DNA of 64,000 nt from Rhea pennata (Eukaryota > Chordata > Aves > Rheiformes > Rheidae): assembly GCF_028389875.1 (NCBI RefSeq), contig NC_084668.1, positions 16,325,993 through 16,389,992 of the forward strand, in the 5' to 3' direction. The first letter of the stretch is position 1; every line of letters starts with the position of its first letter. The notes below the pieces were generated by a model. That model saw only the letters and a program-made list of their open reading frames with translations, was not told the DNA's origin and ran no database searches. This document shows, piece after piece, positions 40,076 through 58,600 of this stretch. The translations under genes and the position numbers were made by a program.

Positions 40076-40250
40076 TTGCTAGACACTGGACCTGTGAGAG
40101 AAAGCCTGTATTCAACAAGATGTATAGCAAAGGTCTGCTCTAGATAATACTGGAACTGTATGAGGAGGATGTGCAGACTGCAAAATGTCCAGCAATGAGA
40201 TGTGTATAGCATAAACTATATTATATTTAATTTATTTAATTATTATATTT

Positions 40251-40317
40251 TACCTGGTTGATCTTGCCAGTAGCATATGCTTATCTCAAAAATTAAGCCA
40301 TGCATGTCTAAGTACAC
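40251..40317 (+). other. 5' end of 18S rRNA (about 67 nt), retrotransposed fragment
   Basis: The sequence starts TACCTGGTTGATCTTGCCAG, which is the first 20 nt of vertebrate 18S rRNA with one transition. It continues through TAAGCCATGCATGTCTAAGT before breaking at AGTACAC. I count three differences from the universal 18S start, all C-to-T or G-to-A. It begins exactly at mature nucleotide 1, with AT-rich DNA instead of external transcribed spacer before it, so the template was processed rRNA rather than rDNA. It is not a functional rRNA gene. It runs straight into a CR1 3' end. Confidence 0.93.
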
Positions 40318-40687
40318 GAGTGAAAAAGTTTAGAAGACTGAGAGGGGATCTGATCAATGTGTATAAGTATCTGAAGGGAGAGTGTCAAAGGGATGGGGCT
40401 AAACTCTTTTTAGTAGTCCCATGTGAAAGGACTAGAGGCAATGGGCACAAACTGAACCACAAGAAGTTCCACCTGAATATGAGGAGGAATTTCTTTACTG
40501 TAAGAGTGACAGAGCACTGGACCAGGTTGCCCAGAGAGGTTGTGGAGTCTCCTTCTCTGGAGAATTCAAAACCTGCCTGGATGCAATCCTATCTAAAATG
40601 TTCTAGGTGACCCTGCTTGAACAGGGAGGTTGGTCTAGATGATCTTCAGAGGTCCCTTCCAACCTTACCAATTATGTGATTCTGTGA
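40318..40687 (+). mobile_element. CR1 3'-end fragment fused to 18S rRNA head
   Basis: A frame of about 85 codons from 40320 carries the CR1 C-terminal block ([47 protein letters not shown]). A one-base frameshift follows near 40560, then the CR1 3' UTR: GGTCTAGATGATCTTCAGAG, CCCTTCCAACCTTACC and a terminal ATTCTGTGA-type repeat. It is severely 5'-truncated. The truncation point is also the junction with the 18S sequence, with blurred microhomology at 40316-40330. It closely resembles the CR1 at 43.85-45.5 kb, so both belong to a similar subfamily. It is antisense to MARCHF4. Confidence 0.93.
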
Positions 40688-41754
40688 AACTGCAAACATG
40701 TATTCATAGTGATTTGAGCTTGAGCGAATGCTTAGCATATGGAAAAAGTAATTACCTGATTATAATCATGCATTTTGCTGTCAATCATTCTTCATACACA
40801 TATTTTATTTCTAAAAGGAACTGACTAAATATGTACAGGGCTAAATTTTGTCTTGGCTTGGCTGAACAGGGGAGGCTGCTGACTGTTGTTGATCACTGAA
40901 TGATGTGTGCCCTCATGCAGCCCATGAATTTAAGGAAGACAAATCCCTCCTTCTTCTACTTATCATCTTTTCAGTCTACTTACTGTAGAGGGACTCCACT
41001 GATACATAGCTTTCATACTGATGTGTATCTGATAGGGTGAGACCTTTGTGGTCAGAAGTATCGACTGGGCAGAGCCCTCACCCACATATGCAGAAATGTT
41101 TCTCCCAGCTGTCTTATTGGGGTATTTTCTGGAGGTATAGATTCTGCCTGGTATGATTTCTTCTCTTTAGGGTCACTAACAGCCCATGAAGGCTGGTCTC
41201 CAAGCCCTCATTTTCTGACTGACTAGCAAACCTTATGCTTATCATGGCTTGAATCTTCTTACACAGGCTGGGGTTCAAGGATGGCTATGCCTCAAAGCTT
41301 CCTCAGCACCAGGTGGGCTGGGACCCCCCACAAAGGCAGCGAGAGCCCTTCTCTTTCTCTGCCTCCTCTGCTCCATCTGGCAGAGCTACAGGAGCAGCAG
41401 CTCCCATCTGATAGGGTGCCTAGGCTATGCCCCAAGTTCTGTACAGCCATTAACACCCACCTTCTGACTCAGCAAGAGCCCTGCTGGATGAGAAATGGCT
41501 TCAGCACGTTGAGATCGCAAAGGGTCACCATAGTTGCTGTTCCGCCAGACTAGTGATCATTACTACCCTCACCCCATTTATTGCTGGGGCAGAGTGTGGG
41601 GGAGCTGGGGAAAGAAGGCAGCTCTTTCATTAAATCCTCTTTAGGCATTGATTAGAGTGCTTGGCCTGACAGCTGGGGACATTTCTCCTCCAAGCATACT
41701 GTGATTTTTGTGAATTAAGCAAGAAACAATTTCCAGGTCATGACCCTGCAACAT

Positions 41755-43849: not shown

Positions 43850-45500
43850 TACTTATGCTAAACCAATGTATCTTGGAGGCAAGAGAGAAAGTCTGGAGAA
43901 AGGAAGTCTTTCCTGTGGTCAAGGAGGATCGGGCAAACTTGTCAAGATTGGGTGTCAAATTTAGGCAAACTTAACACTCACAAATCCAGGGGCCCTGATG
44001 GGATACACCCATAAGTGCTGAGGGAGCTGGCAGATGTTATTGCTAGGCTGTTCTCCATCATCTTTGAAAAGTCATGAAGAAAAGGAGAGGTGCCTGAGGA
44101 CTGGAAGAAAGCCAGTGCCACTCCAGTCTTCAAAAAGGGCAAGAAGGAGGACCCTGGAAATTACAGGTTAATCAGCCCCACCTCCATCCTTGAAAAGGTG
44201 ATAGAACAGCTCATCCTGAATGTCACCTCTAAGCATGCGGAGGAAACGAAGGTGATCAGGTGTAGTCAGCATGGATTCACCAAGGGGGAGTCCTGCTTAA
44301 CCAATCTGATAGCCTTCTATGATGGAAAGACTGGCGGGGTAGATGAGGGGAGAGCAGTGGATGTTGTCTACCTTGACTTCAGCAAGGCTTTTAACACTGT
44401 CTCCCAAAACATCCTCATAGGTAAGCTCAGGAAGTGCTGGTTAGATGAATGGACAGTGAGGTGGATTGAAAACTGGCTGAAACGCAGAGCTCAGAGGCTT
44501 GTCATCTGTGGTGCAGGCTAGTTGGAGGCCTGTGACTAGTGGTGTCCCCAAGGGGTCAGTACTGGGTCCCATCCTGTTCAACTTTTTCATCAATGACCTG
44601 GATGAAGGGACAGAGTGCCTCCTCAGCAAGTTTGCTGATGATACCAAACTGAGTGGAGTGGCTGATACATCACACGGCTGTTCTGCCATTCAGAGAGATC
44701 TGTACAGGTTGGAGAGCTGGGCAGAGATGAACCTCATGAAGTTCAACAAAAGCAAGTGCAGGGTCCTGCACCTGGGGAGGAAGAACCCGATGCACCAGTA
44801 CAGGTTGGGGTTGACCTTCTGGAAAGCAGCTCTGTGGAGAAGGACCTGGGAGTTTTGGTGGACAACAAATCAACCACGAACCAGCAATGTGCCCTTGTGA
44901 CCAAGAAGACCAATGGTATCCTTGGGGGGCAAGAAGAGTGTCAACAGCAGGTCAAGAGAGGTTATCCTCCCCCTCTACTCAGCCCTTGTGAGGTCATCTG
45001 GAGTACTGTATCCAGGTCTGGCTCCCCAGTACAAGAGAGACATGAAACTACTGGAGAGAGTCCACAGTAGGGCTACAAAGATGATTAGAGGTCTGGAGCA
45101 TCTCTCTTATGAGGAAAGGCTGCAAAGGCTGGGCCTTTTTAGCCTGGAGAAGAGAACACTGAGGGGGGAATCTTATCAATGTCTACAAATACCATAGGGG
45201 AAGGTGTCAAGAGGGCGGGGTGGGACTCTTCAGTGGTGCCAAGCAACAGGACAAGAGGCAACGAGCACAAATGGAAACTTGGGAAGTTCCCCCTGAGTAT
45301 GAGGAAAAACTTCTTTCCTGTGAGAGTGACAGAGCACTGGAACAGGTTGCCCAGAGAGGTTGCGGAGTCTCCTTCTCTGGGGATACTCAAAACCTACCTG
45401 GATGCAATCCTGAGCAATATGCACTAGGTGACCCTCGTTGAGAAGGGGGTTGGACTAGATGATCTCCAGAGGCCCCTTCCAACCTCAGCCATTCTGTGAT
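43850..45500 (+). mobile_element. CR1 LINE, 5'-truncated, dead ORF2
   Basis: Pieces of CR1 ORF2 run in order in the plus direction. Around 43875 is the linker LEAREKVWRKEVFPVVKED. From 44090 comes reverse transcriptase (MPEDWKKASATPVFKKGKKE, YLDFSKAF), then [12 protein letters not shown] near 44550 and the catalytic FADDTKL near 44630. After these come [13 protein letters not shown] near 44840 and the C-terminal block ending ESPSLGILKTYLDAILSNMH near 45420. The 3' end is the standard GATGATCTCCAGAGG plus ATTCTGTGAT. The pieces sit in at least three successive frames with in-frame stops (for example TAG at 44519), so no active enzyme can be made. The 5' limit is uncertain: similarity fades before about 43865. 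CR1 is the main non-LTR retrotransposon of birds. Confidence 0.93.
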
Positions 45501-55612: not shown

Positions 55613-58600
55613 CTGCAAGGGGAGGCAGGGAGAGAGGAGAAGGAACAGGTGGGAGGGAAGAGGAAAAAAAAAGAGATTAGTTACATGGTGGACAGCACTG
55701 TTTTACATCGTGGTAGTTGGAGATCCCAGAGAGCACCTGTGACTTGATATGTGTACCCTATGCGTAGATCCTTTCAGCCAGTGCTGAAATGCAGACATCT
55801 CTGGGCTGGAACACGGCAGTTGTTTCATGATAGCATGGCCCCATGTTTCCTGACAGCATTTCAGAAGACGAAATGGGGAAGAATCCTGCACCTCACCAAA
55901 AAAGGCATGGATAGCTGAGTCAGGCCGCATGGGCTGGGGGCAAGATACCAAAAATAGCATCCCCACAGCAATGGGTCTATGATGGCTATCACAAGCCAGG
56001 ACGTTCAGTTGCTACCAGAAATGGAGGCCAAGCAGCATCCTTTTGCTGTGAGCGGAAAGGCCCTAGAGAGCTGAGCTGTCCTTTAGGGGCCTCCAGTGTA
56101 AGCCATAAGCTGGTTTCTGTGCCACTTTGTGAGATCTGACAGGATCACAACACTAGATAGGATCTTGCTGAGGCAATGCATACCCCATAAAATGTGTTAC
56201 AAACAACACAAGTTGCTGTGGTCAGGACTCCTTGCCTTTAGGGCGATGACACATTTGCGCTGTATTCCAAGGTAAACAGCAGCACTTCTTCCTCAGAAGA
56301 ATGAAAAACAGAAATAACTCTCCCAAATCCCTTCATTATGTCAAATAGCACTGTATAACCTACAATGAAAATATCCTGAGTCTGGACTCCTCTCTGTCAT
56401 CCAGAATAAGCCCTCCCTACTCATATTTATGCTGCTGAGAGAATGGCCCTGTAAAAACCAAGAGCTGAAATTGCTTTCTCTAACAAGACTTGAGGACGTG
56501 GTCCATATAGCTGCTCCTGCAAATCAGAAATCAAATGCTTAAACAGGCTGAGGAGAGAGAGTCTCTTCTGGCATTGAAGTGGCAAGGCCACCTTTAGCTG
56601 TGTGACACATGCCCTTGAAATCTCAGTTGGACTGGCAGAAGGATAAATAAAGGTGGAATTCAGCCTCTTGCAGGCATAGAGGATTCAAAGGAACTGAAAA
56701 GCTTTAGCTTGGATTCAGCCCTCATTCAGTGTCCCTGTGGAGTGGTATTTCTGGAGAGCCCTTAGCACCCTGCCCATCTGTCAAACACATCCTGAGACAG
56801 CAGGGTCACCTGTTAAGCCTTGTGCCATCATTTCAGAGAGCAAGAAGGGAGTTCAGTTGCTGGGTCCCTCTAATGGTTGGTACTTCAGGAGAGTCCAGGC
56901 CAGCCAGGAGCTACCACTATTTTTGGGCTGTGGACATGACTTTGAGCCCTGCTCAAACAGCAAAGGATAACAGGAGACGTGCTGAGGCAGGCTCCATTAC
57001 TACATTACTACAAGTCCAAAGAGCAGAACCCTAAACCAGATGCAGCTCCCTGCAAAAGGCTGCCTTTGGAGAGGAACAAACGAGAGCTTCTGTTTGATGC
57101 TGAGGTGTATAGTTGCATCTGGAAGAAGATGGCTTGGCTTGGCTCAGAGGCGAGCTGAAGTGTCCACCTCTGCCAGCCTTAGTCCTTAGCTTACATCCTG
57201 CAGAGGCAGGCAGCCTTCAGATCAGTTGTCAGGGATGTGCAGTATCAGTGAGGTGGCTGATACTAGCTTATCTCTTAGTTGGCCAAAAGATATTATAGCC
57301 ATAAAGCTCCTGAGCAGAAACAGACTGTATCCTGCTGAGCCAGGCCTGGGCTTAGCTAACTGCAGTTTCCTTCCTATCATCCACTGCAATGGCATGCCCA
57401 GCCAAATACAAACATAGAGCACTGAAGACATACAATAATCTCTTAAACAGCCCATTCTCCCTCTGCCCAAAGACCTAGTCTGCTCCATACCTGCACCAAA
57501 GGCAACCACACCAGTGGCCCCTTCATGCCATGAGGAACATGAAGTAGTGAATAACCCTCTTTTGAGGGCTGGGAGCTTGGTGGTGCCATTTATGATGGCA
57601 GCATGAAGGCCAGATACTGGAGTCCAAAAGAGATGTACAGCCATGCAACTCCTCTCCTGTCATGAGACAAAGCAAAGGTCCCTCCAGAGCTAAGAGGGGG
57701 CAGCGGGCCTCCTAGCATCCATTTATCTCAAATTAGGATTCTAAGGATGGGACCAGCAGCTATGCAGTTCTCTCATCAGCACTCTTCAGCTTCATCCTCA
57801 CAAGACTGTAAGCAGATGCAGGGCAAATCAGCAACTGGTATCATCAGCTCAGAGCTCCAGGACTACAGGTATGGAGGGCTGGGTATGGGGTGGGTTTGTA
57901 CTTTCACTTTTGAAGCTTTCTCCAGACTTTGTCTCCCCTTCCATTAGCTCTGGCAAATGTTGAACAAGCAGGAATGCCTTTCAGTACCTAGTGCTATGTG
58001 CTAAGGTTTTATTAGTCGCTCATGCTGACCCATATGTGCCTGTGCCAACCAAATCTTTCTGCATCATTTCTCGCTTGAGAGGAGGTAATGGACTGGCCAC
58101 TCACTGTCTGTCTGGCAAACTGCAAGGCTTGTGGCAGCAACAGGTCCTTCCAAGGTAGTAATTAAAGAGAGAAAAAGAAGCAGCAGCTGATTTCTACAAT
58201 TAACAGCCATGTACAACTACTATCACTGATTTTCCCGAGACAGGGAATTAGGTATATAACTGAAACTGTTGTTATACTCCCCAAGGGGACATGGCTGAGG
58301 GCATAGAGAAGTTATGCTCCTGAGTGCAAACTTCAAACCCAGCTTCCTTCATCTGGGAACAGGGAGGCTGAAACACAGGCAGGACTGCTGCCTGACACTG
58401 CTGTGTTAGTAGCAGCTGCCGGGTAGTTCACTGTGGTGATAATGAATGAATCTGAAGTCCTTCAGCCATGCTGGGTAGTAGGAGACTCTCCCCCAGCATC
58501 CTGCACTAAGTGACTATGATACACACAGTAGCAGTCCTGATTCTGTTCAGGAGGTGGCACTGGGGTGTGATTACCTTCTGGCAAGGAAGTAAATGGGTCA

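Follow-up and report, generated by a model that had tools for sequence, protein, structure and literature searches.

The element under study occupies positions 40251–40687, on the + strand, of the window, i.e. the 64,000-nt stretch of Rhea pennata DNA analysed here; the genome searched was the 1.269-Gb assembly, in 180 contigs. Two coding-exon peptides were found on the minus strand, at window positions 55621 and 31691, which places the element antisense to its host gene and within the last intron of that gene. The gene is presumably MARCHF4, the gene named originally, to judge from the protein sequence of the two exons; Pfam searches of these exons returned no domain naming the gene (no families for one exon and a single sub-threshold match for the other).

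Structure of the composite element

The first 65 nt of the element (40251–40315) aligned to nt 1–65 of 18S rRNA, with 62 of the 65 positions identical to a human-type vertebrate reference. The three mismatches, a number that agrees with the original prediction, are all transitions (nt 14 C>T, nt 33 G>A and nt 41 G>A). When an 86-nt segment was scanned with Rfam, the match to RF01960 started at model position 1, which corresponds exactly to 40251, and scored 66.3 bits (gathering threshold 50; E 2.6e-18); scans of 2001 nt and of the whole window gave no 18S head. The Rfam match makes the identity of the head independent of that reference. The possibility that the match was not to 18S rRNA was thus checked in two ways, both of which gave 18S, and the predicted start at mature nucleotide 1 was borne out. 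The head had been said to be ∼67 nt long; it measures 65 nt against the human-type 18S, and would reach ∼67 nt with an avian-type 18S, which would probably lengthen the match by ∼2 nt.

The 3′ part of the element (40332–40687) is a 5′-truncated CR1 3′-end, standing in the same orientation as the 18S head. From 9103 candidate relatives in the genome, 40 were scored; one was the element itself, and to the 39 others the CR1 part was 88–91% identical. Over 40332–40688 it differed at 23 of 357 positions from a consensus built from 27 of these copies, chosen as its closest matches; the 27 themselves differ from that consensus by 4.2–9.5%. Its 3′ terminus (40671–40687) is made up of the octamers ATTATGTG and ATTCTGTG followed by an A, as read in the sequence and aligned with the other copies; the CR1 octamer motif is given as 5′-AUUCURUG-3′ in PMC5729268. 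Together with the similarity to CR1 copies, these octamers support the claim that the CR1 3′-end finishes with its normal terminal repeat. Neither the CR1 3′-end (z –0.22) nor the head (z –0.27) is predicted to fold, as RNA, more stably than shuffled sequences. A longer and older CR1 lies 4 kb downstream (43901–45500, + strand, same orientation as the element); its reverse transcriptase is frame-broken, with RVT_1 pieces in two frames, and it differs by ∼17% from the consensus to which the element was compared. The CR1 part of the element is 79% identical to positions 45153–45500 of this second copy.

Between the two parts lies a ragged junction of 16 nt (40316–40331) that fits neither of them confidently. 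The 18S was thus predicted correctly to stand in the same orientation as the CR1, yet it does not run directly into it. In all 39 of the relatives scored (the element itself being the fortieth, out of 9103 candidates), CR1 similarity begins only at window positions 40331–40334, and all 39 lack the head, which is therefore no part of the CR1 family. Read as an extension of CR1, the junction was no better than chance (p 0.56); read as 18S, it was slightly similar if ∼10 nt are skipped (p 0.011–0.016). That the junction might be a normal 5′ variant of CR1 was rated low, since among 25 pattern matches allowing up to two mismatches this copy alone carried the exact GTTTAG-AAGACTGAG join.

Filler DNA at LINE 5′ junctions is known, and a ragged junction such as this one could also mean that a piece of rDNA was taken up as filler, at the DNA level, while the CR1 inserted, or else that the join arose in the assembly. 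We consider both very unlikely. The exact start at mature nucleotide 1 would not be expected from a random break in rDNA, and the old divergence is similar in the two parts, unlike what a join to live rDNA would give. The number of differences was 3 of 65 in the 18S part vs 23 of 357 in the CR1 part (Fisher p 0.78, a comparison of low power given a head of 65 nt); such similarity is compatible with both parts having arrived in one event.

Copy number and the SINE question

The original prediction labelled the element a proto-SINE and proposed counting the copies that share its join. In this genome the count gave one readable copy: an 81-nt query comprising the head and the junction returned a single candidate, the element itself, and so did a search for 18S nt 1–32 with up to three mismatches, while neither the opposite strand nor a reversed control gave any match. 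A search of viral_contigs with the 18S pattern gave no match. Identical 5.8S genes on contig C21 (nine listed) indicate that the rDNA array is present in the assembly; the single-copy count covers readable sequence, the stretch of the array expected to hold 18S reading N for 3000 of 4001 bases. Near-perfect 18S pieces, including young copies of the head, could thus be hidden elsewhere.

A small-RNA-like head joined to a LINE tail is indeed the layout of a SINE, and the element might be the founder of an 18S-headed family. A SINE family has many copies sharing the head–tail join, whereas here one was readable, and a scan for exact patterns found no Pol III A-box or B-box in the head (L054 1501–1565); exact matches to these patterns outside the head were at chance level. 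The proto-SINE label is accordingly not supported, and a founder role appears the least probable of all the explanations considered. The element looks like a one-off insertion rather than a new mobile family.

Flanking sequences and the order of events

No clear duplication flanks the composite. The best candidate for a target-site duplication is the 8-nt direct repeat ACTGCAAA, present upstream at 40177–40184 (+ strand) and in the 3′ flank at 40689–40696; repeats as good were found in 143 of 20000, 50 of 20000 and 56 of 8843 controls. The upstream copy does not abut the head, ∼66 AT-rich nt (40185–40250) lying between them. If the repeat is a target-site duplication, the 3′ flank would be part of the target rather than 18S, and the ∼66 AT-rich nt, which a switch from CR1 to 18S alone leaves unexplained, would belong to the insert.

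The same flank can be read in another way, because the 3′ boundary of the element (GTGAAACTGCAAAC, 40684–40697, + strand) resembles 18S nt 80–92. An 18S fragment covering ∼nt 1–92, with ∼10 nt of the GTAC...GTAC hairpin missing, might have arrived first and have later received a CR1 at nt 80–85, leaving GTGAAA on both sides. Once the CR1 is removed, the flanks do align to 18S nt 1–92. The sequence that follows the CR1, GTGAAACTGCAAA, was compared with 18S nt 80–92, GTGAAACTGCGAA; matches as good occurred in 0 of 907 controls at that fixed position and in 2 of 907 at any position, and the junction 16-mer carries the 18S on to the same GTGAAA (with the p of 0.011–0.016 given above). When the join could be chosen freely, however, the observed score was reached by 44 of 1000 controls with a random 3′ flank, by 13 of 1500 with both sides random, and by 15 of 330 control flanks that also began with GTGAAA. 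Moreover, GTGA belongs to CR1's own end, the AAC continuation is also seen in 4 of 28 other listed copies (L004, L010, L024 and L027), and the flank word ACTGCAAA recurs upstream at 40177. The two readings of the flank, as 18S or as a target-site duplication, compete, each at a level of a few per thousand. A nested insertion would also require two rare events, no unbroken 18S fragment starting at nt 1 was found elsewhere in the readable genome, and a second 18S fusion described below would be left unexplained. That CR1 is reported to insert without target-site duplications (PMC2169234) likewise counts against it. We regard this order of events as unlikely, albeit as the leading rival to a template switch; were it true, the CR1 here would be an unremarkable copy that landed in a pre-existing rRNA remnant, and the second fusion alone would bear on switching.

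Ribosomal RNA fragments elsewhere in the genome

Two 18S sequences of 692 and 1075 nt, which leave out ∼nt 693–794, were used as queries and returned four and five rows, grouped into six loci: the present element, L057, C1:37159098–37159952, C6:3506845–3506925, C28:708523–709036 and C3:116384571–116385063. A 5.8S/28S query returned 65 rows from the 40 of 83 candidates that were scored; all but three of these rows fell on C21 and C148. On the latter contig, diverged 28S and 5.8S copies (75–91%) stand by the dozen in both orientations between ∼155 kb and 781 kb and form a degenerate rDNA-derived array.

The flanks of the nine rRNA fragments lying outside C21 and C148 were compared by blastn with a library of 10 or 11 CR1/SINE sequences. 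A CR1-type tail in sense was found directly downstream of two of them, the present element and L057. At the C3 locus a CR1 in the same orientation lies ∼220 nt downstream, and at the C1 locus CR1s lie ∼0.3 kb away and more; blastn found no CR1 in the fetched flanks of the C6 and C28 loci, nor within ∼1 kb of each of the three 28S fragments. The chance of finding a sense CR1 start at two of nine fragments was estimated at 3.5e-6 to 5.5e-4 within 20 nt and at 8.7e-5 to 0.013 within 100 nt, for a CR1 density equal to that of the window (two CR1s per 64 kb) and for assumed numbers of 250,000 and 500,000 copies. Since the index case was chosen for its CR1, one of eight rather than two of nine is the fair figure; with this case left out, the chance of a directly joined CR1-type tail was 0.0025–0.031 within 20 nt under the assumed densities.

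Two of the other loci showed further features. The 18S fragment at C1 (from nt 526) abuts, at its 5′ edge (L051 near 1667; C1:37159952), an antisense 11-nt string resembling a CR1 octamer, and is possibly a twin-primed CR1 product; the string was considered too short for a third 18S/CR1 case, and the locus was counted as lacking a joined CR1. The C6 locus (L053 near 1500–1581) is a lone 18S fragment (nt 140–228, 85%) whose 5′ flank repeats ∼12 nt of the fragment's own 3′-end (ATTTATCAGAT), as if it had been inserted through microhomology or with a duplication.

In L057 (C11:11051279–11051423; fusion at L057 1503–1787), nt 1723–1868 of the 1869 nt of 18S rRNA are fused, in the same orientation, to a tRNA-Ile/CR1 SINE at the 5′-end of the latter. 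The 18S piece is 87% identical and lacks the last base of the mature 3′-end; in Rfam it scored 46.5 bits, below the gathering threshold of 50 (E 6.7e-10). The head of the SINE, which resembles TguSINE1, we take to be tRNA-Ile, on the basis of its sequence and of the structure published for TguSINE1 (PMC5729268); ARAGORN called no tRNA at this locus. A first look for relatives of the SINE gave 4832 candidates, of which 40 were scored and 41 matches listed. All 40 other SINE matches start at query positions 47–59, past the 18S (1–45), so that among those scored the 18S is private to L057. Most of the unusual bases at the 5′-end of the L057 SINE recur in L085 and L072, two members of an alignment of 29 relatives, which suggests that nothing is missing from the 5′-end of this SINE. 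Template switching predicts just such a jump, made on reaching the 5′-end of one RNA and resumed at the 3′-end of another, and L057 favours switching for this reason; the later insertion of a SINE exactly at the edge of an older 18S piece would be a coincidence.

Probable template switching by the CR1 reverse transcriptase

The element is probably, and with good confidence, the product of a single chimeric retroinsertion in which the CR1 reverse transcriptase left its CR1 template for 18S rRNA and copied this as far as its 5′-end. Priming at the CR1 3′-end is established CR1 biology, and target-primed reverse transcription would here have started at the terminal octamers, the 3′-end observed being intact. 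Some 356 nt of CR1 RNA, the length present in the element, would then have been copied before the enzyme moved onto mature 18S rRNA, presumably ∼65–85 nt from the rRNA 5′-end; a few bases may have been added or skipped at the join, as the 16-nt junction suggests. Copying would have run on to 18S nucleotide 1, at which the head is seen to start and which would be the end of the template if this was the mature RNA. Since the two parts are about equally diverged and one copy is readable, the product was presumably inactive from the moment it inserted and has been accumulating mutations ever since.

This switch is favoured by the start of the head at mature nucleotide 1, its sense orientation to CR1 and the intact CR1 3′-end, by the finding, in this genome, of another 18S piece fused to a CR1-type tail, and by the published precedents of 28S/L1 chimeras and of CR1 switching to tRNA. 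Against it count the ragged junction, the lack of a clear flanking duplication, the resemblance of the 3′ flank to 18S, and the fact that seven of the nine rRNA fragments outside the arrays have no directly joined CR1, i.e. that rRNA pieces also arrive without CR1. The switch originally predicted thus stands as the best explanation, with added support from L057, CR1 insertion into an older 18S fragment remaining its rival.

In the element a cellular RNA fragment stands 5′ of a LINE 3′ part in the same orientation, the arrangement of RNA/LINE chimeric insertions. The kind is already known, with 28S, U6 and 5S joined to L1 and tRNA joined to CR1. For 28S/L1 chimeras, PMC13174262 gives 18 loci, 83% of them in sense, and proposes template switching or RNA ligation; as here, an rRNA fragment precedes a LINE in the same orientation, although those cases involve L1, mammals and internal 28S pieces and the present one CR1, a bird and 18S. 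The main text of that paper mentions '18S rRNA' 0 times. U6/L1 and related small-RNA/LINE chimeras (PMC4476161) share the RNA head, the LINE tail and an origin by template switching in one event, and differ in carrying U6 where the present element carries 18S. The single such case with a CR1-like element given there, a turkey U6, was 5′-truncated and was left unresolved owing to a gap (PMC4476161). The CR1-mobilised passerine SINEs TguSINE1 and PittSINE have the same CR1 tail with terminal octamers; they bear tRNA heads and form amplified families, in contrast to the 18S head and single readable copy found here (PMC5729268). The same source proposes CR1 template switching onto tRNA for PittSINE and places the onset of TguSINE1-type tRNA-Ile/CR1 SINE activity in the ancestor of Eupasseres. 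SINEs with 5S rRNA heads (PMC3747384) and 28S rRNA heads (cited in PMC13174262) likewise carry an rRNA-derived head on a LINE-mobilised unit, and are amplified families, unlike the one readable copy of the present element. The literature search, which covered few subscription journals, recognised no 18S–CR1 chimera, in keeping with the original remark that none was known to have been described.

The second fusion hints that such template hops recur. From the two sequences, we give roughly even chances to the idea that the CR1 reverse transcriptase jumped onto 18S repeatedly in this lineage, to its 5′-end in the present element and from its 3′-end in L057, rRNA being a regular second template for CR1, SINE insertion included. 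If so, a clade-wide census would show a class of 18S/CR1 chimeras. The two 18S cases supply junctions for studying how the CR1 reverse transcriptase changes templates. The scarcity of retrocopies in birds was reportedly put down by Suh, in 2015, to the specific requirements of CR1. A switch made after initiation would bypass the need of CR1 for its own 3′-end, and rRNA–CR1 chimeras would thus reveal one way for foreign RNA to get into bird genomes and for new SINE heads to arise.
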